Shown: positions 338 through 18,577 of the stretch, piece after piece
Numbering within the stretch: position 1 is the stretch's first letter
Layout of the letters: each line of letters opens with the position of its first letter
Origin: Deltaproteobacteria bacterium
GTDB lineage: Bacteria; Desulfobacterota; Desulfobaccia; Desulfobaccales; 0-14-0-80-60-11
NCBI GenBank assembly: GCA_016875015.1
Contig: VGSJ01000008.1
Span: forward strand, 1 to 60,411
Direction: 5' to 3'
Length of the DNA stretch: 60,411 nucleotides
Made by a program: the position numbers and the translations under genes
Notes under the pieces: generated by a model
Seen by the model: only the letters and a program-made list of their open reading frames with translations
What the model was told of the DNA's origin: nothing
Databases searched by the model: none

Positions 338-3300
338 CTAGGGCTGCCAAATTTCATCAATTTCTCGCATCTGGTCAATGGTGAAGCGCAGTACCTTGAC
401 CACGTTGATGATGTTTTCGATTTCATCCAGGGAAAGTTGACGTCCCTTGCGTGACTTCAAGTATTTGTCCAGCACCTGGTAGCCGCCGATATGGAAATTC
501 CAGACATCTGCCGGCACCGGGGCGAAATACTGTTGGGGATTGATATAAAGCCGCTGTTCCGGGGCGTGGTAGGTTGGCTTTTCCACCCGGTCGCTGCCCT
601 TGGTAATATCGACCTGGGGCTGAGCCGGGATATCTTTGAGTAAATGCGCCTGTACCAAGGCCCAGCCGCTCCTGGCAAGGGCTTCAAAGGTTTTCCGGTC
701 ACCTGCGAACGGAATCCGCGGAAAGTCGATTTTCAGGAACTCGGCATATTTTTGCCGGTACGCGGGGCTGTGCAGCACGGCATAGATATAGCCCAGGATT
801 TCCTCCGGCTCGTAACGGTGGCCGTATTTCAGGTCGATGAAGGCGCGGAACTTGGGGGCGAAGTTTTCGCGGCGCTCGTTGTATTGAGCCTGAAGTTCCT
901 CGACAAAAAGGTGGTTGTTCTGGTTTTGGTTGGGCTTTTTATTTTTGGTGTCGTTGTAAAGGTAGAGGGGGAAAAGATAGCTAATGTCATAACGTGAAAC
1001 TGCTTTATGAGAAATAATATGCTCAGTTGCCAAGATAGACCAGTCATCTTTGGTAAGTCTTGTTGTCATTAAACCAATATTTTTATCTTTATGTAAAATA
1101 TGACACATGATCTGTTTGACAGTGCGCCAGATCAACACATCATCATAAATAATATAGCGCGAATCAAATGGCCTATATATTACTGGTAATATTTTTTCTT
1201 TGATATTAATATCGCTATATTGTTGCAGCTTATCCCAGGCTTTTAGTATATCCCAACCAATTTTCTTATTTACAGAAAATATTTTATAAAGTTCTTTGCC
1301 GCGCTCACTGTCTCGAAAACTTGAAAACCGTTTTAATAATGATTTTTTTTCATAAGCTATAACAAAGTCGTCGTGTGCAGTTGTCATGCCTACGCCATTA
1401 ACCGGAAAGATATCCGTAATCTTCCATCCCTGTTCATATTTTTCCCGCCTTGATTCATCCTGCGGAATAAACAGATAAAACGGGCTTTTAGGTTGTATTT
1501 CAAGCCAATTGGCATCATCGAAATCCATCTCCATGCAGGCGCGGTATTTTTCCTGCCGTTTGCCCCAAAGGTCGGCTTGAAAAACTTTGCGGTCCAGTCC
1601 TGGTTTGCGCACTAGCAAAGAAATACACACCCCCTGCTCGATATCGAAGACGTTTTCATCCTTGCCGCCGTCCGGGGTTTTTTCCTTTTTCTTGGTGCTC
1701 CCATGCAAATCAAGCACATAAATCCGGTTGAAGGTCCGCATCAGGCTCTGCCTCATGCCGCGGAAGGTGGGGTTGTCCAGGAAAGAATGGTTGGTGATGA
1801 TACCGACAATCCCTTCCTCCACCTGGTCCATCTTCCATTGGGCGAAGCGGATGAATTTGACGTAATCGTCCTGCAACCATTTGGGATTTTTTTCGCCCAA
1901 GGGCAGGCCATCAACCTGCTTGTAAGAGTTAATCAGCCCGGTAATCCATTTCCCCTTGTTCAGAGAATGACCGGAATAAGGCGGATTGCCGGTGATGACC
2001 AGGATAGGCCGGTTCTTGACGTTTTGGGCCAGTTCCACCTCTTTGGACAGGGCCGGGAGGAGCCAGTTTTGTTGGGGTTCGATGGGCTCCAGGGTGTTGG
2101 TGAGATAGATTTGCAGGCGCTCTTTGGGCTGCATGTGGAAGCCTTTATCAAGCAGATACTGCGACAGCTTCAGGTGGGCGATGGTATAGGGCGCGATCAG
2201 ATATTCAAAGCCATAGAGGTTTTTCAGGGCGTGTTCCCGGATCACCTGGTCCCGCACGCCCTCGGAGGTCTCGTCCAGGATTTGCTGCATCACTTCCAGG
2301 AGAAAAGTGCCGGTGCCGGTGGCGAAGTCCAGGACGGTGACGCGTTTGCGGTCGGCCAGACCGGCATGGATGCCAAAAGTGCTTTTCAAGATATCGTTGA
2401 CGGCCCGAACGATAAAATTGACCACGGGCGGCGGGGTGTAGTAAACGCCGCGGCTTTTGCGCATGTCCTTATCGTAAGCCTTCAAAAACCCTTCGTAGAA
2501 ATAGACGTAGGGGTCTTTGGCAAACAACAGCCGCTCTTCCTCGGTCTGGGGGAACAGGCGGCCCTGGCGTTTGCTGAAGGCCAGGTCCTCCCGGAGCGCG
2601 GCCAGATCAAGGTTGTTCATGATGCTGAGGATTTCTTCGATGAGCCACTTGATGTCCCGGTATTCCTCCCGGTCCAGTTCGTCCAGAAAATCCACCAGCT
2701 CGCGGATCAGTTCAAAATTCGTGGGAATGAACTGCTTGGCGTTGTTAAGGCTGATGGGGGCGCCATTGCCGCTGTTCAGCCGCGCCAGAAACAGGCCGTA
2801 GCCCAGCATCTGGGCGAAGGCGTCGGCAAAGCCGGCCAGGTCCAGTTCATGAAAGACGTCTCGCTTAAACACTCCATAGAGGCCGAAAAGCTTGCCGCGC
2901 TGGTCTTCTTGCTCCTGCCGGATTAATTCAGCGGTGAGAAATTGGCGCAATTCCTGGCAGCGCAGCGCCAGGGCCGCAGCCAAATCCTTGGCCCGGCCGA
3001 TACCCTTAGGCGGGGTGGATAAAAAGGCGGCGATTAAAACCGCGACTTTTTTCGCCTTATCAGAATCGAAGCGGGCCTTGGGATAGCCGACATCGCTGGG
3101 ATAGCAGAGGGTTTCCCGCTTGGTGATGACCCCGTCCCTCAGCCAGATCCATTCCAGGTAATCGGTCAGGATCAGGTTGCCGGACAAACGGTTGTATTTG
3201 ACGATTTGTTCAGACTTCAGAAATTGGTCAAGCTTTTCACCAATTTTCTTGGTTTCCAGATAGCCCAGGATGCGCTCGTCGTGGGTTTTGAATTTGAAAT

Positions 3301-3472
3301 CCGGGGCGCCTTTGCCGGTCAGGTCGCGCTTGGGTTCGTGAATGACCTTGATCTTCACTCCGGCCAGGGCGTTCAAAAGCTGATCCAGCGCCGGGCGCAA
3401 GGTGTGCTCGGTGGAGTCTGTGACATCGAGCTTTTTAATTTGCTCAAAATAAGCTTTGAAGGCTCCAATCAT
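338..3472 (-). CDS. Single-chain restriction-modification enzyme (type IIG / ISP-like)
   Basis: The 1044-residue protein combines cleavage and adenine-N6 methylation in one chain. Near residues 57-75 it has a PD-(D/E)xK-like nuclease signature (PD at 57-58, ETK at 73-75). Methyltransferase motif I (DFATGTGTF) is near residue 382 and the catalytic NPPY is at 496-499. The C-terminal third resembles the specificity domain of type ISP enzymes. It lacks the helicase of true type ISP proteins (about 1500 residues), so type IIG is a better fit. The start has GAGG about 11 bases upstream. Bases 960-1380, encoding roughly residues 698-838, are about 33% GC against about 60% in the rest of the gene, which suggests an exchanged target-recognition domain. 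No separate specificity subunit is seen nearby. Confidence 0.85.
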   Translation of the reverse strand: MIGAFKAYFEQIKKLDVTDSTEHTLRPALDQLLNALAGVKIKVIHEPKRDLTGKGAPDFKFKTHDERILGYLETKKIGEKLDQFLKSEQIVKYNRLSGNLILTDYLEWIWLRDGVITKRETLCYPSDVGYPKARFDSDKAKKVAVLIAAFLSTPPKGIGRAKDLAAALALRCQELRQFLTAELIRQEQEDQRGKLFGLYGVFKRDVFHELDLAGFADAFAQMLGYGLFLARLNSGNGAPISLNNAKQFIPTNFELIRELVDFLDELDREEYRDIKWLIEEILSIMNNLDLAALREDLAFSKRQGRLFPQTEEERLLFAKDPYVYFYEGFLKAYDKDMRKSRGVYYTPPPVVNFIVRAVNDILKSTFGIHAGLADRKRVTVLDFATGTGTFLLEVMQQILDETSEGVRDQVIREHALKNLYGFEYLIAPYTIAHLKLSQYLLDKGFHMQPKERLQIYLTNTLEPIEPQQNWLLPALSKEVELAQNVKNRPILVITGNPPYSGHSLNKGKWITGLINSYKQVDGLPLGEKNPKWLQDDYVKFIRFAQWKMDQVEEGIVGIITNHSFLDNPTFRGMRQSLMRTFNRIYVLDLHGSTKKKEKTPDGGKDENVFDIEQGVCISLLVRKPGLDRKVFQADLWGKRQEKYRACMEMDFDDANWLEIQPKSPFYLFIPQDESRREKYEQGWKITDIFPVNGVGMTTAHDDFVIAYEKKSLLKRFSSFRDSERGKELYKIFSVNKKIGWDILKAWDKLQQYSDINIKEKILPVIYRPFDSRYIIYDDVLIWRTVKQIMCHILHKDKNIGLMTTRLTKDDWSILATEHIISHKAVSRYDISYLFPLYLYNDTKNKKPNQNQNNHLFVEELQAQYNERRENFAPKFRAFIDLKYGHRYEPEEILGYIYAVLHSPAYRQKYAEFLKIDFPRIPFAGDRKTFEALARSGWALVQAHLLKDIPAQPQVDITKGSDRVEKPTYHAPEQRLYINPQQYFAPVPADVWNFHIGGYQVLDKYLKSRKGRQLSLDEIENIINVVKVLRFTIDQMREIDEIWQP

Positions 3473-7986: not shown

Positions 7987-8493
7987 ATGGCTCATAAGTC
8001 ATATCGCCTTTCCTGGACCATAGCTCGGATGCTGATGGTGGCCGCCTGCGTTCTGGCCTTGGCGTCACCAGGCTGGGGGGCCGGCAAGGCCGCCCCGAAC
8101 TTTTCCCTGAAAGATGTGCTGCAGGGCAAGGAATACTCCCTGAGCCAGTTCAAGGGCAAGGTGGTGGTAATCAACTTTTTCACTTTCTTCTGCGGTCCGT
8201 GCCGGGATGAGATGCCGGACCTGAACCAAATCCATAACGAACTCAAGGGCAAGGGCCTTCAGATGTTGGGTATCGCACTCAGTTCCGACCCCACCCAAAT
8301 CCGCTTCCTGGTGAAGCAACTGGGCCTGGAATACCCGGTGCTCACCGGCAATGACAAGGTGAGCGATGACTATGGGAGCGTCGCGGTGGTGCCTACCACG
8401 GTAATCATCGACAAGTCAGGCAACGTCGCCCAGAGGATCGAGGGCACCCGGAAAAAAGCCGCCTTTCTGAAACTGATCGAACCGTTGCTGTAA
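7987..8493 (+). CDS. Exported TlpA/ResA-type thioredoxin
   Basis: 168 residues. A Sec signal peptide covers about residues 1-33 (basic start, hydrophobic core, A-x-A-like end near PGWGA). A thioredoxin fold with a CGPC active site follows in the segment NFFTFFCGPCRDEMP, the AhpC/TSA-Redoxin signature of TlpA/ResA proteins. It should reduce disulfides in the periplasm, for example during cytochrome c maturation, or act as a peroxidase-like redoxin. The cis-Pro loop is VVPTT. AAGGAG lies seven bases before the ATG. No cytochrome-maturation genes are adjacent. Confidence 0.85.
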   Translation: MAHKSYRLSWTIARMLMVAACVLALASPGWGAGKAAPNFSLKDVLQGKEYSLSQFKGKVVVINFFTFFCGPCRDEMPDLNQIHNELKGKGLQMLGIALSSDPTQIRFLVKQLGLEYPVLTGNDKVSDDYGSVAVVPTTVIIDKSGNVAQRIEGTRKKAAFLKLIEPLL

Positions 8494-8649: not shown

Positions 8650-10410
8650 ATGGCTTCATGGCAAGAATTACCCGAATGGGCCCAGGAATTGGCGGAGCAC
8701 GTCAAGGAGGGCGAAGCAGCCCTTTTTATCCTCCATGGGCAGGTCTTCGACTATACCCGGGTGAATGGCGATTACCTGCCGTTCCGCCATTTTCTGGGCC
8801 ATTGGCTGGCCCAGGCTCGCCATGTGGTCTTCTACAATCTCGGCCTGGGGCTGGAGTTTGGGGACGACGTCGGCGAAAATGCCTTTAAATCGGCCCTGGA
8901 GCCACCGGCTCAGGGGCTAGCACCGGGGGAAGAAGACGGAGAGGACGTCTCCCGGGTCCGGGCCCGGGCTTTGCGGGCCCTGGGCCAGCCGCCCCAGTCC
9001 AAACCTCTGCCCCAAAGTCCCCGGGAAGTGCTCCAACTGGCGGAACGGGTGATGACCGTCCCTTGCCGGCAGGACGGCCTGTCCCAGCCTCTGGCCCTGA
9101 TCCTGGAATACGCCGAAACCATCGTGCCCGCGGTGGACCTGGGGTCCATGGGAGAGCCGGACCGGGCCTCGCTGGTCACCCTGCTGCGCTGGGCCCGGCA
9201 GCGGGAACTGGTGGAGCAGGGCCATCTGGTTATCCTGACTACCGGCAACCTGGCGGAGTTAAACCCCAACCTGCTCTTGAGCCGCCACGGGGCCCAGATC
9301 ATCGAGGTGCCGCCGCCGGATCAGGCCGCCCGGCTCCATTTCATCGAACACTTTCTCTCCTCCGGCGCCTGCCGCCTGGAGCTGTCTTCCCAGGAGCTGG
9401 CCAATCTGGCCGCGGGCTTAAGCCTCCAGGTGGTGCGCGCCCTCCTGCGCCGGTCCCGGCGCGCCCCCCTCACCATGGAGATGGTGCGCCAGCAGAAGAA
9501 GGATCTGCTGCGCCAGGAGCTGGTGGGGCTCATCGAAGTCATCGAACCCCGGTTCGGCCTGGATGAAATCGGCGGGTTGGAACCCATCAAGGGGTATTTT
9601 GCTCAGATTGTCCAGGCTATTCACGCCGGCGACCACAAACTGGCGCCCCGGGGCATCACCATGATGGGCCCCCCGGGCGTGGGCAAGACCGCCCTGGCGG
9701 AAGCCCTGGCTCGGGACATCGGCTTCAATTTCGTCAAGCTGCTTAACCCCCGCACCAAGTGGGTGGGAGAAAGCGAACGCAATTTTTTCAAGGCCCTCAA
9801 CACCCTCCGGAGTCTCACGCCCCTGGTGGTGGTGGAAGACGAGGCCGATCAGAGCGAGCATGGCCGCGATGAGTACTCCGGGGACACCGGGGTCAGCAAC
9901 CGCCTCCGGCAGATGCGCTTTGAGTTCACCGGCGACCCGGCCATCCAGGGCAAGGTCCTGTGGATCAGAATTACCAACCGCCCGGATCGGCTGGACCGGG
10001 CGGACCTGCGCTCCGGGCGTTCCAGCGAACGGATCCCCTTCTTCATGCCGGATTTCACCGAAAAGTGTCACATTTTCCAGGTGGTGGCCAAGCGCAGTCA
10101 CATTGCCTGCGATTTTGCGGATTTTACTGAGGTCACCCATTACCTGGAGCAGCGACACCCGGAAGTGATCACCGGCGCGGACATTGAGGAACTGGTCTTC
10201 CGGGCCTACCGGCAGGCGCGGGTGGCGGGCCGGGAGAAAGTGCGCCCCGAGGACTTCCACCGGGTGATCGACGACTTTCTGCCTCCCCACCAAGCCGAGG
10301 TCCTCCGGCAGATGGAGCGCCTGGCCCTGAACCAGTGCTCCTCCCGGCGCTTTGTGCCGGAGCGCGTCTGGGCCTGGGCCGCCGGGGGCGAAGAGGAAAA
10401 AGACAATTGA
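8650..10410 (+). CDS. Two-lobed AAA+ ATPase (inactive first lobe)
   Basis: 586 residues. The first 285 residues look like a degenerate AAA lobe: a Walker-B-like strand (LALILEYAETIVP) and a sensor-1-like LTTGNLAEL are present, but there is no Walker A. The second lobe is canonical: Walker A GPPGVGKT at 340-347, Walker B ending in D397-E398, a TNRPDRLD sensor and Arg residues in SNRLRQMR. Overall this resembles the Ycf46/CDC48-like classic AAA group, which remodel or unfold proteins. GGAG lies about 10 bases before the ATG. An AT-rich methyltransferase follows after 63 bases, and an E2-like gene of matching GC follows that. The pairing with the E2-like gene is inferred from synteny only. Confidence 0.8.
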   Translation: MASWQELPEWAQELAEHVKEGEAALFILHGQVFDYTRVNGDYLPFRHFLGHWLAQARHVVFYNLGLGLEFGDDVGENAFKSALEPPAQGLAPGEEDGEDVSRVRARALRALGQPPQSKPLPQSPREVLQLAERVMTVPCRQDGLSQPLALILEYAETIVPAVDLGSMGEPDRASLVTLLRWARQRELVEQGHLVILTTGNLAELNPNLLLSRHGAQIIEVPPPDQAARLHFIEHFLSSGACRLELSSQELANLAAGLSLQVVRALLRRSRRAPLTMEMVRQQKKDLLRQELVGLIEVIEPRFGLDEIGGLEPIKGYFAQIVQAIHAGDHKLAPRGITMMGPPGVGKTALAEALARDIGFNFVKLLNPRTKWVGESERNFFKALNTLRSLTPLVVVEDEADQSEHGRDEYSGDTGVSNRLRQMRFEFTGDPAIQGKVLWIRITNRPDRLDRADLRSGRSSERIPFFMPDFTEKCHIFQVVAKRSHIACDFADFTEVTHYLEQRHPEVITGADIEELVFRAYRQARVAGREKVRPEDFHRVIDDFLPPHQAEVLRQMERLALNQCSSRRFVPERVWAWAAGGEEEKDN

Positions 10411-10473
10411 GGTAAGGCGATTATATGCTTGACAAACCATGAAGGAGACTTGAATACAGTTAAGGTATGAAAC

Positions 10474-11961
10474 ATGAATAAACTATATTTTGGCGATTGC
10501 TTAGACATTTTAAAGAAGCTAAACAAGGAGCACCCTTCTGGTTTTATAGATCTGATTTATATAGACCCGCCATTCAATTCAAAGAGAAACTATAATATTC
10601 TTTTTGAAAATGCCGACCTAAAAGATACAAAGGCCCAAAAGGAAGCATTCTCCGATACGTGGAGTAATGTTTCTTATAAGGATACGCTTGAAGAACTAAA
10701 AGATATTGATCTTGATCTGTTAGCTTTTCTTGAAAGTTTGGATAACAACAGAATATCAAAGAGCGCTGTTTCCTATCTCACAACAATGGCAATAAGAATA
10801 TATTATATGCACAAAGTTTTGAAAGACACGGGAAGTTTTTATCTTCATTGTGACCCGACTATGAGCCATTATCTGAAAATATTGTGTGATTTAATTTTTA
10901 AAGTGACTAATTTCAGAAATGAAATAGTATGGTGTTATCGCAGATATACAGCCATTTCTAAACGCTTTCAAAGGCTCCATGATGTAATTCTTTATTACGC
11001 TAAATCGAACAAATCGACCTTCAATCAACTTCTTATTCCATATGGCGACAAATCAGGCAAAATGGATGCCCATTATAGGCAGGATGAGGACGGGAAGTGG
11101 TATAGGTGGCAAAAAAGAAAAGATCAAGAGCCATATAAAATTAAACTTAGCGAAGGAGTCAGATACGGTGATTGGTGGGATATCCCAATAATAAACGCTT
11201 CTGCCAAAGAACGGCTGGGCTACCCAACACAAAAGCCGGAGGCATTGCTTGAAATAATTGTTGAAGCAAGCTCAAATAAAGGTGATTTAGTGGCTGACTT
11301 TTTTGGCGGGTGCGGCACGACTATTTCCGTTGCACAAAAACTGAAAAGAAATTGGCTCGCGGTAGATATTTCCCACTTGGCAATCGGTCTGATTGAAAGG
11401 CGATTGATTAAGTCCTATGGCAAGACAATTAAAAATACTTATGAAATAGACGGACTCCCTAAAGACATATCTTCTGCTAAACAACTTGCCGAAGGCACGT
11501 CCCGCGGTCGCCTTAAATTTCAGGACTGGATTATCGAAGCAATGATCGGTGGTGTCCATAATCCTAGAAAAACTGCCGATGGAGGGTGGGATGGCCATTT
11601 AACGTTTGAATTGCCGAATCATCAAAAAGAAATAATCATTATTGAAGTAAAGAGTGGCAATGTAAATGTGAAAAACTTAAGAGAATTTGTACAGGTAATA
11701 AACAAACAAAAAGCGGCGATTGGTGTATTTGTCTGTTTTGAAGAAAAAGTAACTAAACCGATGCGATTAGAAGCAAAGGACGCAGGATACTACAAGAAAG
11801 ATATATTCGGCGCTAATTATGACAGAATCCAAATAATGACAGTTGAGAAACTTCTTGAAGGTGAAGAAATTAAAATGCCTAATATTTTAACAACAACTTT
11901 TAAAACAGCTAAGGGGAATAAAGAAAACGTCGAACATCCGGGTTTATTTAAGGATAAGTAA
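10474..11961 (+). CDS. DNA methyltransferase fused to a PD-(D/E)xK nuclease domain (AT-rich)
   Basis: 495 residues. Beta-class amino-methyltransferase order: motif IV DPPF at 31-34 near the start, then motif I FFGGCG near 276-281. A C-terminal domain (about 350-470) has D373-G and E391-V-K393, the Mrr-like PD-(D/E)xK arrangement. It could be a single-chain restriction-modification enzyme. The gene is roughly 37% GC while both neighbours exceed 60%, so it is probably a recent import. It shares layout and many motifs with the gene at 47613-49259 (NQLYFGD / NKLYFGD start, DPPFNS, TQKPE, VKSG). AAGG lies about nine bases before the ATG. Confidence 0.85.
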   Translation: MNKLYFGDCLDILKKLNKEHPSGFIDLIYIDPPFNSKRNYNILFENADLKDTKAQKEAFSDTWSNVSYKDTLEELKDIDLDLLAFLESLDNNRISKSAVSYLTTMAIRIYYMHKVLKDTGSFYLHCDPTMSHYLKILCDLIFKVTNFRNEIVWCYRRYTAISKRFQRLHDVILYYAKSNKSTFNQLLIPYGDKSGKMDAHYRQDEDGKWYRWQKRKDQEPYKIKLSEGVRYGDWWDIPIINASAKERLGYPTQKPEALLEIIVEASSNKGDLVADFFGGCGTTISVAQKLKRNWLAVDISHLAIGLIERRLIKSYGKTIKNTYEIDGLPKDISSAKQLAEGTSRGRLKFQDWIIEAMIGGVHNPRKTADGGWDGHLTFELPNHQKEIIIIEVKSGNVNVKNLREFVQVINKQKAAIGVFVCFEEKVTKPMRLEAKDAGYYKKDIFGANYDRIQIMTVEKLLEGEEIKMPNILTTTFKTAKGNKENVEHPGLFKDK

Positions 11962-12024
11962 ACGAATACTATTTTATATTTTCTCTGGGTTTGCAAAGTA
12001 TACAATCCCCTTTCAAAGGGGGGA

Positions 12025-12837
12025 ATGAAGAAGCAAGGAAAAATCTCGGCCATCAAAGACAAGATCATTATCACCGGGGCTGACATGATCCTCCAGGAGG
12101 AGGCGGGGGAAGGGCAGTTACGTGTGGCTCGCCGGGCGCCCCTGGAGGCGGTGCTGCGCTACGCGGCCCGGGTCATGCCGCCCCCGCTGCCGGTATTGCC
12201 CCCGGGCGCCCGCTGGCTCTGCCGGAAAAAAGACCTGTTCTTTCTGGTGGTGGAGCATCCCCCCCAATGCCGCACCCTGAGGGTCAGCCGCGGCAAAAAA
12301 GGCGAGGATGATTACCACCCTTACCGCCTGGCCTTCCCTTACGTTATCTATGTCCTGACCTTCTACCGGGACGGTTTCGAGGAAATGAAGATGTTCTTCC
12401 GGAACCGTCCCTTGAGTGCCCCCACGGATACCCTCTATCATACCAACCTGCCCAACGTCCGGGGGGAACCGGGTCACTACGGCAGTCAAAGGGTCTGCTT
12501 GCGCTACCGGCCGGAGATGCTGGAGGGGGCTCCCCTGGCCGAGTCGGTGCCGGCGCTCCTCGAGTTCTTCTGGAGCACCGGCTTCAATCAGGATATTGCC
12601 AACAGCGCCTTCGGGCGGGCCCAGGCTCGGGACCCGCGGTTCGCCAGTCTCGAAGCCTGGGAGGCGGCCAGTGGGGCAAACCCCCTGTTCCCTTTAGAAG
12701 TTGATTGGGAACCGGCGGGCCGGGATTTGCCGGGTTTGTGGTTGGAATGCTTGAAGCTGCATGGCGAAACCGCTGCCCCCATCAATACCGCCGGCGAACT
12801 GGCGGATATCCTCTACCGGCTGCCGGTGGGATACTGA
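12025..12837 (+). CDS. E2-like protein (prokaryotic E2 family D / PRTRC-B-like)
   Basis: 270 residues, not a firmly recognised family. The centre matches the E2 (UBC) plan: strand FPYVIYVLTF, then RNRPLSAPTD, then an HPN-like stretch YHTNLPNV, then GSQRVCLRY, where the Cys sits as the catalytic Cys does in the E2 motif G-x-I-C-L. A helix with ESVPALLEFFWSTGF follows, like the FF-S-FT motif of PRTRC protein B. It would be a conjugation-type enzyme or a non-catalytic E2 relative. No E1 (ThiF) or ubiquitin-like gene is seen in this window. The start is uncertain: G-rich bases abut the first ATG, and Met at 12085 is an alternative. GC-rich like the AAA+ gene, unlike the methyltransferase between them. 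Confidence 0.5.
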   Translation: MKKQGKISAIKDKIIITGADMILQEEAGEGQLRVARRAPLEAVLRYAARVMPPPLPVLPPGARWLCRKKDLFFLVVEHPPQCRTLRVSRGKKGEDDYHPYRLAFPYVIYVLTFYRDGFEEMKMFFRNRPLSAPTDTLYHTNLPNVRGEPGHYGSQRVCLRYRPEMLEGAPLAESVPALLEFFWSTGFNQDIANSAFGRAQARDPRFASLEAWEAASGANPLFPLEVDWEPAGRDLPGLWLECLKLHGETAAPINTAGELADILYRLPVGY

Positions 12838-13623: not shown

Positions 13624-14073
13624 TCAATCAGGAAGATCGCCACGCGAGAATTCATGGGCCAGGTCTGTAATCAGCAGGTTGGATAAGTTAGGGCTGAGAT
13701 AGATTTTCTGGGTTATTATGGTATGGATGGCCTTCACCAGTTCCTCCAGGGCGCAATCTTTCAACAGATAGCCCGAGGCCCCGGCGTTGAGCATATTCAA
13801 GACAAACAGACTGTCAGAGTGCATGGAGAGGGTAAGAACTTTGACCCCGGGATATTGAGACAATATCTGACGGGTCGCTTCCACGCCGTTCAAGTCGGGC
13901 ATGGAAATATCCATGATCACTACCTGGGGGGAGAATTCTTGGATGAGCTTTATGGTAGTATGATAATTTCCCGCCTCACCCACCACTTGCATATCAGGTT
14001 CGCCGGCCAGGAGCAGGGCAAGGCCCTGGCGTATTATCCGATGGGGATCCGCCAAAACAATCTTGATGGCCAT
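13624..14073 (-). CDS. Receiver-only response regulator (NarL family, HTH lost)
   Basis: 149 residues from the ATG at 14073, which has GGGAG eight bases upstream. The receiver domain is complete: acidic pair ADPH at the start (one Asp of the usual DD replaced, ADP rather than ADD), phospho-acceptor Asp in VVIMDISMPD, Thr/Ser switch in LTLSMHSDS and Lys in LLKDCALEEL. It stops about 15 residues after the last helix (LITDLAHEFSRGDLPD), where its two neighbours continue into a LuxR helix-turn-helix. It is clearly a paralogue of the regulators at 14303 and 15222. It may act as a phosphate sink or competitor rather than a DNA binder. Confidence 0.85.
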   Translation of the reverse strand: MAIKIVLADPHRIIRQGLALLLAGEPDMQVVGEAGNYHTTIKLIQEFSPQVVIMDISMPDLNGVEATRQILSQYPGVKVLTLSMHSDSLFVLNMLNAGASGYLLKDCALEELVKAIHTIITQKIYLSPNLSNLLITDLAHEFSRGDLPD

Positions 14074-14188
14074 TCTGTCTCCCGGGGAGGTCGATTGGGC
14101 AGGTCGCACGGAGATATGCCGGAGCAGACAAGGTTTGGGTCATGAAACCAAATTAATCAAGCTGCCCCAGGTGTTGTGCATAAAAATA

Positions 14189-14225
14189 TAGGGATTCCCC
14201 CAAAAAGCATTTAGGGAATCCCTAA
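14189..14225. promoter_or_regulatory. Paired operator-like palindromes
   Basis: GGGATTCCC at 14191-14199 and TTAGGGAATCCCTAA at 14211-14225 (perfect 7-1-7 inverted repeat), centres 23 bp apart or about two helical turns. They lie upstream of the receiver-only regulator. Related sites lie at 15138, 19190, 19398 and 19420. Confidence 0.55.
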
Positions 14226-14302
14226 TTTTTGTTTCCGGAAAACCTTAATTTTTTAAAGTTACCCGCGGACGCGGCGTATCTGGCCGTGATCCTCAGGCAG
14301 GC

Positions 14303-14992
14303 TTAGACTTCAAGAGAGGTCAATCCCTGGCGGATAGCGTATTTGGTGAGTTCCGCGACACTGTGAATCCCCAATTTAGTCATGACCTGTTTGCGATGGG
14401 CTTCCACGGTTTTGACGCTGACACAGAGACCGTCGGCGATTTGGTTGGTAGTTCTGCCTTCGGCCATGAGTTGCAGAACTTCCCGCTCCCGGGGCGACAG
14501 GACGGAAAACGCCGAGGAATTCGTGGTCTGCCAACCAGTCACGAAATCCCGGATCACGATGTCGGAAACCCCCGGACTCAGGTAGGTTTTATGGTCCACC
14601 ACGGCGCGGATCGCTTTCACCAGTTCTTCCAGGGCGCAGTCCTTGAGCAGATAACCCGAAGCGCCTGACTTGATCATGTTGAGCACAAAGAGGCTGTCGG
14701 AATGCATCGACAGGGCGATCACCTTGACGTCCGGAGCCCCGGACAATATCTGGCGGGTCGCCTCGATGCCGTTCAGCTCAGGCATAGACAGATCCATGAT
14801 AATAATGTCAGGGAGTAATTCCTGGGCCTGTTTCAACACCTTGCGCCCGTTATCGGCTTCGGCGATTATCACCATGTCAGATTCTGCTTCCAGCAGGATG
14901 CGCAACCCCTGGCGCATAATCTGGTGGTCGTCCGCCAGTATGATTCGAATCGGTCGGTTCGTGCTATAAAATGAATTTTTTCTTTGGCCCAT
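14303..14992 (-). CDS. NarL/FixJ-type response regulator
   Basis: 229 residues: receiver domain (about 16-130) with ADDH acidic pair, acceptor Asp in IIIMDLSMPE, SMHSDS switch and LLKD Lys, then a LuxR-type helix-turn-helix (about 165-225, LSPREREVLQLMAEG ... SVKTVEAHRKQVMTKL). It should bind DNA when phosphorylated. It is one of three tandem paralogues and the receiver sequence from SMHSDS to LVKA is almost identical in all three. A 229-base spacer with one palindrome separates it from the regulator upstream. The likely kinase is the protein at 15875-18577. Confidence 0.93.
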   Translation of the reverse strand: MGQRKNSFYSTNRPIRIILADDHQIMRQGLRILLEAESDMVIIAEADNGRKVLKQAQELLPDIIIMDLSMPELNGIEATRQILSGAPDVKVIALSMHSDSLFVLNMIKSGASGYLLKDCALEELVKAIRAVVDHKTYLSPGVSDIVIRDFVTGWQTTNSSAFSVLSPREREVLQLMAEGRTTNQIADGLCVSVKTVEAHRKQVMTKLGIHSVAELTKYAIRQGLTSLEV

Positions 14993-15137
14993 GGGAATCC
15001 CCCCAATGCTAACTCACTGGCAAAACGGTTCCTGGCCGAAGCCACGGGTGGACCGGCGCCTCGATCCGCCCCGGCCAGAATACTTCTTTAAGATTTGCTG
15101 ATTATTCTTCTACACCGGTGCAGGGCAACTTGCAGTC

Positions 15138-15149
15138 GGGGATTCCCTA
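15138..15149. promoter_or_regulatory. Operator-like palindrome
   Basis: GGGGATTCCCTA, sharing the GGGA-N-TCCC core with the sites at 14191 and 14211. It lies upstream of the regulator at 14303-14992, about 145 bases before its start. Confidence 0.45.
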
Positions 15150-15221
15150 CTTTTGTGATGCGCAAAGCCTGAATTTTCCCGTTTTTCTAGCCGGATGGCC
15201 AGCCCAGAGCTTAAGACCGGG

Positions 15222-15878
15222 TCAAATTTCCAGGGAAGTCAGGCCTTGGCGTATGGCATACTTAGTGAGTTCGGCCACGCTGTGAAGATCCAGTTTGTTC
15301 ATCAGTTGTTTGCGATGGGCTTCCACCGTCTTCACACTGACGAACAGGCTATCCGCGATTTGGTTGGTGTTTTTGCCTTCCGCCATCAACTGCAGCACTT
15401 GTCGTTCCCTGGCCGTCAGGATGGAGTAGGCCGAAGAAGAGGACTCCGCTGAGGACCACCCGATGACGAAGTCTTTGATCACAACATCGGAAATGCCGGG
15501 GCTGAGATAGACCTGGCGGTTCAGCACCGTGCGCACCGCTTTCACCAATTCCTCCAGGGCGCAATCTTTCAGCAAGTACCCCGAAGCCCCCGCCTTGAAC
15601 ATATTCAACACGAAGAGACTGTCGGAATGCATCGACAGGGCAATAACTTTGACTCCCACGGCTTCGCCCAGTATCTGGCGCGTGGCTTCGATGCCGTTGA
15701 GGTCGGGCATGGAAATGTCCATGATCACCACCTGGGGGGCAAGTTTCTGGACCAACCTGACCACTTCCAGCCCATTGTCCGCCTCACCCACAACCTCAAA
15801 ATCAGGTTCTTCGGACAGCAGACTGCGGAGCCCGTGACGCACTATCTGGTGGTCGTCCGCCAACACGATCTTGATCAT
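15222..15878 (-). CDS. NarL/FixJ-type response regulator, kinase-linked
   Basis: 218 residues: receiver (about 1-120, acceptor Asp in VVIMDISMPD) and LuxR helix-turn-helix (about 155-215, LTARERQVLQLMAEG). Its ATG overlaps the stop codon of the sensor kinase by four bases, so the two are translationally coupled and form the primary pair. It ends TKYAIRQGLTSLEI, nearly the same as the neighbouring regulator (TSLEV). This argues that the downstream copies arose by duplication of this gene. Confidence 0.94.
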   Translation of the reverse strand: MIKIVLADDHQIVRHGLRSLLSEEPDFEVVGEADNGLEVVRLVQKLAPQVVIMDISMPDLNGIEATRQILGEAVGVKVIALSMHSDSLFVLNMFKAGASGYLLKDCALEELVKAVRTVLNRQVYLSPGISDVVIKDFVIGWSSAESSSSAYSILTARERQVLQLMAEGKNTNQIADSLFVSVKTVEAHRKQLMNKLDLHSVAELTKYAIRQGLTSLEI

Positions 15879-18577
15879 GTTACTATCTCCGCATGAGCCT
15901 TCTTAGCGTGCTGGAGGGGTACTACCAGAGTGATCCGGGTTCCCCGGCCATTGCCCGGTTCCACCTGCACCCGGCCGCCAAGATACCGCAAGCGCTCTCT
16001 AATACTGAAGAGCCCAAAGCCGCCGTTGCTTTTTAGCCGCGGGTCTTGCCGGAGGTCTTTAATCCCCACTCCGTCGTCTTCAACCGCGATGCTCAGGTCG
16101 TCGTTTGCTCGCCGGATGGTTACCCGGGCATTGCGGGCCTGGGCATGTTTGACGATATTAATCATTAACTCCCGCACCGAACGGAAGAGCAGGACTTTGA
16201 TTTCATCATTCATGGGGATGGGGAGCATATCTTTTTGCACGTCCACCTTGATGCCGTGCTGCGACCGGACCTGCCTGGCGAACCATTCCACCGCGGCCTC
16301 AAAGCCAAGCTCGTAAAGGACCGGGAGGCTCAGTTCGAAGGTCAAGGATCTGGTGTCCTGGATCATCTGATCGATGAGTTCCCGCACCTCGCTCAAGGAT
16401 TTGGCCTGTTTCTCCGCGGTGACGGACTTTTGGAGCCCCCCCAGTTTGATCTTCGAGATGGCCAGGGCCTGGCCGATATTGTCATGCAGGTCCGTGCCCA
16501 GGCGCCGCCGTTCGCGCTCTTCGGTCAGGGACAACTCCGACGCCAACGATTGGAGCTGTTCCTGATAAGTGCGGATATCTTCCTCCGCCTTTTTCCGGTC
16601 AGAAATATCTGCGACCATGCCGATGGCAAACTGCGGGGCGCCACCCGCGCCCCGGAGCAGGGACACGGTTACCTGTCCCCAGACCATCCGGTTGTCCTTA
16701 TGCAGGTAACGATTCTCCCGGGAGTAGGAATCTCGCGCCCCCTTCCCCAATTCGGTGAACAGCTTGCCGCTTTTCAGGGCATCTTCCGGATGGAGGAACT
16801 CCGTGAAATGTTTCTGTACCACCTCATCCTTGCCATATCCCAGCATTTTCAGGAACGCGGGGTTGACATCTAAGAGGCGGCCTTCCAGATCCCCCAGAGA
16901 CATGCCAATGGCAGCTTCTTCGAAGATTTTCCGGAATCGCATTTCCGTCTCCCGCAAGGTCGTGATATCACTGAACATGGCAAAAGCGCCGACAAAATGG
17001 CCGTCTTCAAACAGCGGCACCGAACTCATAATGACCGAGGCCAGTCCCCGGTTCTTGCACGTGATATCCAACTCCTGCTGGGCCACCCGGTTCATCCGGT
17101 TCTGAGCCATGACCTCCCTTAACAGCTTCTGATTGTCCTGATCCAGCAAGTCATAAATTTTATTATTTTCCAGCGTGTCATGGCCGGTAATCTCTCTCAT
17201 CCGGCGGTTGGCAAATTTGATGCGGCCTTTTTCATCGATAATCCAGATACCTTCGTGGGCATTTTCCACCAGCTCGCGGTATTTCCGTTCTGACACTTCC
17301 AACTTGCGGTAGAGCACGGCATTTTCCAGGGCGATGGCAATCTGGTTGGCAAAACTCACAATAAACTCCCGGTCGCCATCGGTGATCATCGCATCCTCGT
17401 GGACGCGATCGGCCAGGAGCACGCCGATCACCTTGCCCCTGACCGTGAGAGGGACCAGGATGAAGGCTTTGGGCTTGAAAAATCGGATCAAGCGGTTGTT
17501 CATGTTAAGTTTGCTGCGCGCCACATTTTGAATCACCACCGGGATGCCGGTCATAGCGACCCGGGCAATGACGTTATCCACTTTGCTGATGGGAATCTGA
17601 TAATTCCTCACCTGGTCAAACAGTTCGGGGGCGATCCCCTCCGCATAGGTAAGTTCCAGCACCTCCCCTTTTTCGTCCAGGAGCAGAATCCCGGCCCGAT
17701 CCAATTTGGCCGAGTTGATGAGGAGCCGCAACGTTACCTGCAGCAGTTGCTCCAGATTGAGAACGGAGAGCGCCGCGGTGCTGGTTTCCTGCATGCAGAT
17801 GAGTTGATCGATCTTTCCTTTTAACTGGATATTTAACCGGTGGATTTCGTCAAATTTCTTCTTCAGGAGTTCTTTATCCCGCTCGAGTTCCTCAATAGTA
17901 TAATTGAGCGCCCGCCAAGGCACCAGAAGTCTCAACAAGACTTCTTTTAAAGAAAACTTTCTCTGCCATCTAAAGTGATACTCACAATAATCATCCCCTT
18001 GAAAAAAACATTTAGTTTCTTCCAAAGCCGCGGGGGGAAGATTCCAGATGGTGGGAATACCTGAATATATCCCCTTATTAAATAGACAAAAATCGATATG
18101 ACCGGGAATTTCCTTGAACCAGTGCAACCGGACGACCGCGCTATCACTGCTGGTTTCTACCAGTTCAATGCTCTTGTTCCTATTAAATTTATCATTAATA
18201 GCTTGAACTTTTTTAAGAGTACGGCGAGGGTTTTTGTAAGCGAACATAATAATTCGCTGCACATACCCCAATTTTTTTCTGGCCGCGGATTCAAATCCGA
18301 TCTTAAACGCGACGGCATCATCCTGGGTTATAGCCTTGGCATTCTCAAACATCCGGGTGACCACATCACTGGACACCCAGTTATGCATCTCCATCAAAAA
18401 TTCTTGGGGGTTGTCCAGGCCTTCAATTTCCGGGCCCAGACCCGCAAAGAGATGGTGAACTTCCCCAGGCATGGTTTCTTGAAAATATTCGATTATGGCC
18501 CGGGTATTAAGACAACTATGATGCTTCTCCATCCGATTATCTGACCCCGTTTCTCCTGTGGCTTGCTTTAGCCTCAC
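15875..18577 (-). CDS. PAS/GAF sensor histidine kinase (NarX/HisKA_3 class)
   Basis: Up to 900 residues, no transmembrane segment, so probably a cytosolic sensor. The N-terminal 215 residues resemble V4R-type small-ligand domains: they end in ETKCFFQGDDYCEYHF, as V4R domains end in a Cys-x-G-D-x-x-C-E-x motif. A coiled coil (about 218-262), a GAF domain (about 275-420), two PAS domains (about 430-675), HisKA_3 with phospho-acceptor His698 (DLHDNIGQ) and a HATPase (about 790-890, DDGVGIKD, NGGFGLFSIRERL) follow. The start is uncertain: GTG at 18577 or ATG at 18532. It is coupled to the regulator at 15222. The ligand is unknown; the V4R-like domain suggests a hydrophobic or redox-linked ligand. 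Confidence 0.88.
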   Translation of the reverse strand: MRLKQATGETGSDNRMEKHHSCLNTRAIIEYFQETMPGEVHHLFAGLGPEIEGLDNPQEFLMEMHNWVSSDVVTRMFENAKAITQDDAVAFKIGFESAARKKLGYVQRIIMFAYKNPRRTLKKVQAINDKFNRNKSIELVETSSDSAVVRLHWFKEIPGHIDFCLFNKGIYSGIPTIWNLPPAALEETKCFFQGDDYCEYHFRWQRKFSLKEVLLRLLVPWRALNYTIEELERDKELLKKKFDEIHRLNIQLKGKIDQLICMQETSTAALSVLNLEQLLQVTLRLLINSAKLDRAGILLLDEKGEVLELTYAEGIAPELFDQVRNYQIPISKVDNVIARVAMTGIPVVIQNVARSKLNMNNRLIRFFKPKAFILVPLTVRGKVIGVLLADRVHEDAMITDGDREFIVSFANQIAIALENAVLYRKLEVSERKYRELVENAHEGIWIIDEKGRIKFANRRMREITGHDTLENNKIYDLLDQDNQKLLREVMAQNRMNRVAQQELDITCKNRGLASVIMSSVPLFEDGHFVGAFAMFSDITTLRETEMRFRKIFEEAAIGMSLGDLEGRLLDVNPAFLKMLGYGKDEVVQKHFTEFLHPEDALKSGKLFTELGKGARDSYSRENRYLHKDNRMVWGQVTVSLLRGAGGAPQFAIGMVADISDRKKAEEDIRTYQEQLQSLASELSLTEERERRRLGTDLHDNIGQALAISKIKLGGLQKSVTAEKQAKSLSEVRELIDQMIQDTRSLTFELSLPVLYELGFEAAVEWFARQVRSQHGIKVDVQKDMLPIPMNDEIKVLLFRSVRELMINIVKHAQARNARVTIRRANDDLSIAVEDDGVGIKDLRQDPRLKSNGGFGLFSIRERLRYLGGRVQVEPGNGRGTRITLVVPLQHAKKAHAEIVT

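Follow-up and report, generated by a model that had tools for sequence, protein, structure and literature searches.

Most known ubiquitin-like protein (Ubl) systems of Bacteria are compact operons, many of which lie on mobile elements. The Bil and CBASS Cap2 systems share the E1-E2-JAB logic of the genes described here; unlike in those systems, the present genes are split between loci, no CD-NTase or Bil-type cluster was seen, and the E2-like protein matches no solved structure of that kind in sequence. On the ATPase side, bacterial CDC48/Ycf46-like AAA proteins also combine a GNVxD-type degenerate lobe with an active AAA lobe, and their genes adjoin vWA, DUF-type or JAB-ThiF genes, where no E2-like gene was recognised. 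The PRTRC system, found on plasmids, has the same four enzyme types as the genes considered here, a Ubl (protein C), an E2 (protein B), a JAB protein (protein A) and a ThiF-type E1 (cf. class 6d of Iyer et al. 2006, PMC1779556). Judged by sequence comparison, an AAA+ ATPase and an E2-like protein encoded in the window (the whole stretch of DNA analysed, 60,411 nucleotides) are probably parts of a divergent, chromosomally dispersed PRTRC-like Ubl conjugation system of Desulfobaccales-type bacteria. The predicted Ubl, E1, E2-like, JAB and AAA+ genes are all present in the window's genome, where they are scattered. The ATPase has the following features:

8650-10410, + strand: AAA+ ATPase of 586 aa (ATG at 8650 to the stop at 10410), its first lobe degenerate (about residues 1-290) and its second AAA lobe active
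9667-9690, + strand: Walker A of the second lobe, GPPGVGKT, invariant in 12 homologues
9826-9843, + strand: Walker B of the second lobe, VVVEDE, from the alignment of homologues

The ATPase gene starts with ATG in 12/12 genomes. Its product contains one classical AAA domain (PF00004, residues 337-464, 1.6e-22, 80.8 bits), in which Walker A and Walker B are intact and the motifs invariant, as expected of a classical AAA protein. The first ~290 residues gave no Pfam match and contain no P-loop; they carry an HGQVFDY-type motif at the position occupied by GNVNDR in the first lobe of distant homologues. In distant AAA relatives within the phylum, too, the first lobe is without a P-loop and reads GNVNDR or similar. 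The preliminary description had found the layout of the locus unfamiliar, with an inactive first lobe beside a conjugation-type fold; as far as the lobe is concerned this does not stand, a degenerate first lobe being common to other bacterial AAA proteins. An AlphaFold2 model of the ATPase from a 12-sequence alignment was not usable (pLDDT 44), and no copy was found in viral contigs. A gene for a TlpA/AhpC-like secreted thioredoxin (7987-8493 in the window) lies directly or closely upstream of the ATPase gene in most relatives. Elsewhere (L042, 1077-6345, in G028, a genome of the same order), a JAB/ThiF-like protein occurs in a gene run with another AAA protein of the degenerate-first-lobe type, possibly a related arrangement.

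Among 59 related genomes, the E2-like gene is present in 13 and a close relative of the ATPase in 12, all of them in the window's family, so that these co-occurrence figures are inflated by common descent. Where both genes lie on one contig they are same-strand neighbours in 10/10 genomes (4 genera), and the methyltransferase that separates them in the window is found between them only in the window's genome, which bears out the earlier proposal that the two are adjacent in relatives without it. In two genomes (G017 and G020) they are on separate contigs, and the ATPase is close to or at the end of its contig. The exception is a sister species (G001, 73% complete), which has the E2-like gene without ATPase or E1, and its homology to the window begins at ~12011. 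In the window, the E2-like gene is adjoined by a sensor kinase and three response regulators in tandem, the first of them short, all on the opposite strand (13624-18577).

JAB and ThiF genes were searched for in whole genomes. A second locus, on contig C97 of the window's genome (G000), encodes a JAB protein of 220 aa (P0012, 2860-3522) followed by a ThiF-like E1 of 223 aa (P0013, 3553-4224), and the pair is conserved across the positive genomes. The E1 gene and the ATPase share exactly the same set of 12 genomes, and the E1 gene is present in 0/47 others. A reading of ThiF gene counts as "no dedicated E1" is ruled out by this short ThiF adjoining JAB. The E1 matches PF00899 above the Pfam cut-off (5.7e-14); its best NCBIfam model is PRTRC_ThiF (TIGR03736, 6.5e-11), with 42.0 bits against a cut-off of 144.75, and a YPEI...D...SC block is common to it and a PRTRC ThiF. 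The JAB protein likewise matches PF14464 (Prok-JAB) above cut-off, and its only NCBIfam model is PRTRC_A (TIGR03735, 1.1e-8), at 34.9 bits against a cut-off of 101.8. Its JAMM motif, H-S-H-x7-S-x2-D, is intact and invariant.

The candidate Ubl was identified as a conserved small gene near the ATPase, 3-9 kb upstream of it in 7/7 relatives whose contigs extend that far; in the window's own genome it lies at the end of contig C3 (80712-81107). The preliminary description had noted the absence of Ubl and ThiF genes from the window and regarded a full conjugation system as not shown, a view now overtaken by the E1-like, JAB and Ubl genes elsewhere in the genome. The Ubl scores 1.8e-4 against the ThiS family (22.4 bits, just under the cut-off of 22.5) and 0.04 against MoaD_arch; in the PDB it matches PF1061 and SAMP2 weakly, and it has no match to PRTRC protein C (TIGR03738). 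The end of its core, LEFVRLAGEKG, is invariant in 8 genomes and is followed by an unconserved tail of 1-43 aa, much as in ubiquitin precursors. One PRTRC_C protein ends in FGAKG, so that a C-terminal GxKG is common to both, with GEKG here and GAKG in the PRTRC_C protein examined.

Among the other readings, the one that survives best, while still unlikely, is that E1, JAB, Ubl and E2-like protein function in sulphur transfer, for the thiolation of cofactors or tRNA in a CysO-like manner, with the AAA+ protein as an assembly factor. The Ubl is ThiS/MoaD-like, the hosts belong to a sulphate-reducing group, as is well established, and ThiF and JAB proteins are known to act in sulphur transfer; on the other hand, housekeeping ThiF and ThiS genes exist apart from these, including in genomes that do not have this system, and both an E2-like partner and a tailed Ubl accompanied by JAB are unusual for sulphur carriers.

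The E2-like gene and its features are as follows:

12052-12837, + strand: E2-like gene from the proposed non-canonical start ATC at 12052, by comparison of genomes (called ORF 12025-12837)
12035-12039, + strand: Shine-Dalgarno-like AAGGA before the proposed start, from the comparison of 13 genomes
12439-12498, + strand: LYHTNLPNV...VC block, with candidate catalytic Cys158 (12496-12498) and Asn144 (12454-12456)

Searches of the E2-like protein against Pfam, NCBIfam and PADLOC gave no meaningful match, and the model of PRTRC protein B (TIGR03737/PF14460) did not recognise it; PF14460 was also not found above cut-off in 247 genomes of the phylum, nor the E2-like protein in viral contigs, plasmids or phages. 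Both Cys158 and Asn144 are conserved in 11/11 homologues that cover the block, and a catalytic Cys with an upstream Asn is a feature of prokaryotic E2 proteins. An hhalign comparison with 15 PRTRC-B (Prok-E2_D) proteins is colinear over 157 columns, with the conserved Asn in register and Cys158 beside the PRTRC-B Cys, at a P of only 0.027; in a column permutation control, 11/300 scored as high (~4%), and a profile search with the same 15 proteins was not significant (E 22). The motif order LYH..N..C is alike in the two families, a pattern drawn up after both had been viewed and for that reason not independent evidence. Differences from PRTRC-B are the replacement of the His after the E2 Cys (N188 here) and extra residues between Asn and Cys. 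AlphaFold2, given 12 close homologues, returned a poor model (pLDDT 54.5) with the order helix, beta-meander, Cys loop, helix, and Foldseek with this model gave noise and no UBC match. One copy (G017, L040) contains a single in-frame TAA, from decay or an assembly error.

As alignment and model are weak when taken alone, the E2 assignment draws mainly on the genomic company of the gene. Somewhat less probable than the sulphur-transfer reading is the view that the protein is a lineage-specific, non-UBC protein with a chance LYH...N...C motif, only the ATPase neighbourhood being real. It would fit the lack of a family match, the weak profile scores and the poor structure model, but the genome set of the E2-like gene matches those of E1 and ATPase, E1 and JAB are PRTRC-like, and PRTRC's own E2 is a Prok-E2_D protein, the family to which the colinear alignment was obtained.

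In the preferred reading, that of a PRTRC-like conjugation system, several traits nevertheless set the present genes apart from PRTRC. They are chromosomal and spread over at least two loci, not in a single contiguous cassette; an AAA+ gene adjoins the E2-like gene, which has a non-AUG start; and the scores of E1, JAB and Ubl fall well short of the curated cut-offs, even though PRTRC_ThiF and PRTRC_A are the best matches of E1 and JAB. The system is therefore not a PRTRC system, though it is expected to work like one.

The preliminary description had the E2-like gene at 12025-12837; comparative evidence favours ATC at 12052 over ATG at 12025 as the start. At the protein level, conservation sets in at Ile10 of the called ORF, and the codon at this position is ATC, ATA or ATT in 13/13 genomes (ATC in 11, ATA and ATT in 1 each). 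Eight of the 13 have no ATG, GTG, TTG or CTG between the proposed start and the upstream in-frame stop, which in two genomes (G010 and G019) is only 6 nt upstream. In four (G014, G019, G020 and G021) the first canonical start downstream lies 33 or more codons away, and the intervening codons are under purifying selection in the E2-like frame only (pN/pS 0.31, 95% interval 0.20-0.46); constraint is much weaker upstream of the proposed start. A Shine-Dalgarno 4-mer or longer occurs 8-12 nt before the start codon in 12/13 genomes, compared with 35% in shuffles. From these comparisons the E2-like gene appears to begin at a conserved AUC codon.

To our knowledge, conserved non-canonical starts have been characterised for only a small number of bacterial genes. 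The infC gene of these genomes has ATC or ATA at the expected start after a strong Shine-Dalgarno sequence, a AGGAGGTGA-type ribosome-binding site (L122-L128). The sigR gene of Streptomyces has a GTC start that is repressed by IF3 (PMC5472188). These genes, sigR (GTC) and infC (AUU/AUC), are alike in having a conserved non-canonical start behind a ribosome-binding site; here, in contrast, the gene is one predicted to act in E2-like conjugation. It shows the features of the class discriminated by IF3, namely a conserved non-canonical start, a ribosome-binding site in place and, in 8/13 genomes, no canonical start upstream. If translated from AUC, the protein would therefore probably be made in low amount and in an IF3-dependent manner.

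The interval between ATPase and E2-like gene contains the following in the window:

10413-12013, + strand: inserted low-GC cassette of 1.6 kb (GC 36.9%), delimited by a sister-species match
10474-11961, + strand: N6/N4 DNA methyltransferase with a C-terminal Mrr-like nuclease domain, the cargo (PF01555 1.5e-44, PF22722 5.7e-8, PF04471 5.2e-6)
10941-11208, + strand: middle stretch of the methyltransferase, a gap between matching blocks that has no DNA match to the sister-species copy
12007-12023, no strand: CCCCTTTCAAAGGGGGG palindrome at the right-hand slot edge

The contrast reported earlier, of two genes with common strand and high GC around a GC-poor one, is confirmed (64.4% for the ATPase gene and 62.6% for the E2-like gene, against the GC of the interval). 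A copy of the cassette at another locus of the sister species (G001:C218) has 94-95% DNA identity over 10413-10940 and 11209-12013, and nothing outside. With such defined edges of homology the insertion is real, and that part of the earlier account, an original pair interrupted by a later insertion, is upheld. The stretch at 10941-11208 is probably the target-recognition region of the methyltransferase; with the middle swapped relative to the sister-species copy and flanks ~94-95% identical, the pattern is that of a specificity swap. Only short, chance-like terminal repeats were seen in the cassette, and the CCCCTTT palindrome is not enriched within the window. Five further paralogues of the methyltransferase-nuclease (40-47% identity) are found in the same genome, on contigs C7, C11, C62, C95 and C137. 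A Type ISP/IIG restriction-methylation enzyme (338-3472, - strand, PADLOC 1.7e-275) lies in a lower-GC stretch of the window upstream of the ATPase locus.

Across genomes the interval measures 282-1825 nt, and in eight its GC is below that of the flanks (37-51% vs 60-67%). The cargo differs by genome: the methyltransferase of the window, a TIR-like/deoxyribosyltransferase-like protein with or without DUF559, DUF559 alone, a ParE-type toxin-antitoxin pair, an AriAB (PARIS)-like ATPase, or an IS-like remnant with a small protein. All identified cargo is on the strand of the ATPase and E2-like genes, and in two genomes (G007 and G018) the slot has no cargo gene, only short spacers with repeats. 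The interval is thus a site where defence-type genes have landed recurrently, the methyltransferase being one such passenger, and not the site of a single interruption, as had been supposed. That ATPase and E2-like protein are instead the constant core of a modular anti-phage system, with the gene between them as an exchangeable effector, would suit the defence-like, varying and uniformly oriented cargo but is the least probable reading, and a poor prospect, given the two empty slots, the IS-like remnant in one genome, the methyltransferase cassette standing alone at another locus, PARIS-like and toxin-antitoxin genes that work independently elsewhere, and cargo genes that probably lie between JAB and E1 as well in G010 and G002 (where contigs break), all of which argue for a landing site rather than an effector position.

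For the PRTRC-like conjugation system we infer the following course. JAB would trim the variable tail of the Ubl and expose ...AGEKG, an end that the ThiF-like E1 would then adenylate. The E2-like protein, probably in low supply, would accept the Ubl in thioester linkage to Cys158 and hand it on to targets. The ATPase, likely a component of the system, would extract or unfold the modified targets with its one active, ring-forming lobe, and JAB could also remove tags. The fullest version, a complete Ubl pathway (tailed Ubl, E1, E2 and JAB) plus a Cdc48-like unfoldase, in which IF3 throttles the E2 step by way of the conserved AUC start, is put forward tentatively and leans towards the doubtful.

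We know of no experimentally established function of PRTRC-type systems, and a relative on the chromosome whose gene set is defined would make such function testable. The parts described here are chromosomal, scattered and kept within one clade, and the neighbour of the E2-like gene encodes an AAA+ ATPase, the partner that a ubiquitin system would need in order to act on tagged proteins. The AUC start of the E2-like gene is a separate surprise; if the throttling by IF3 is true, the E2 step would link protein tagging in these bacteria to the state of translation initiation.
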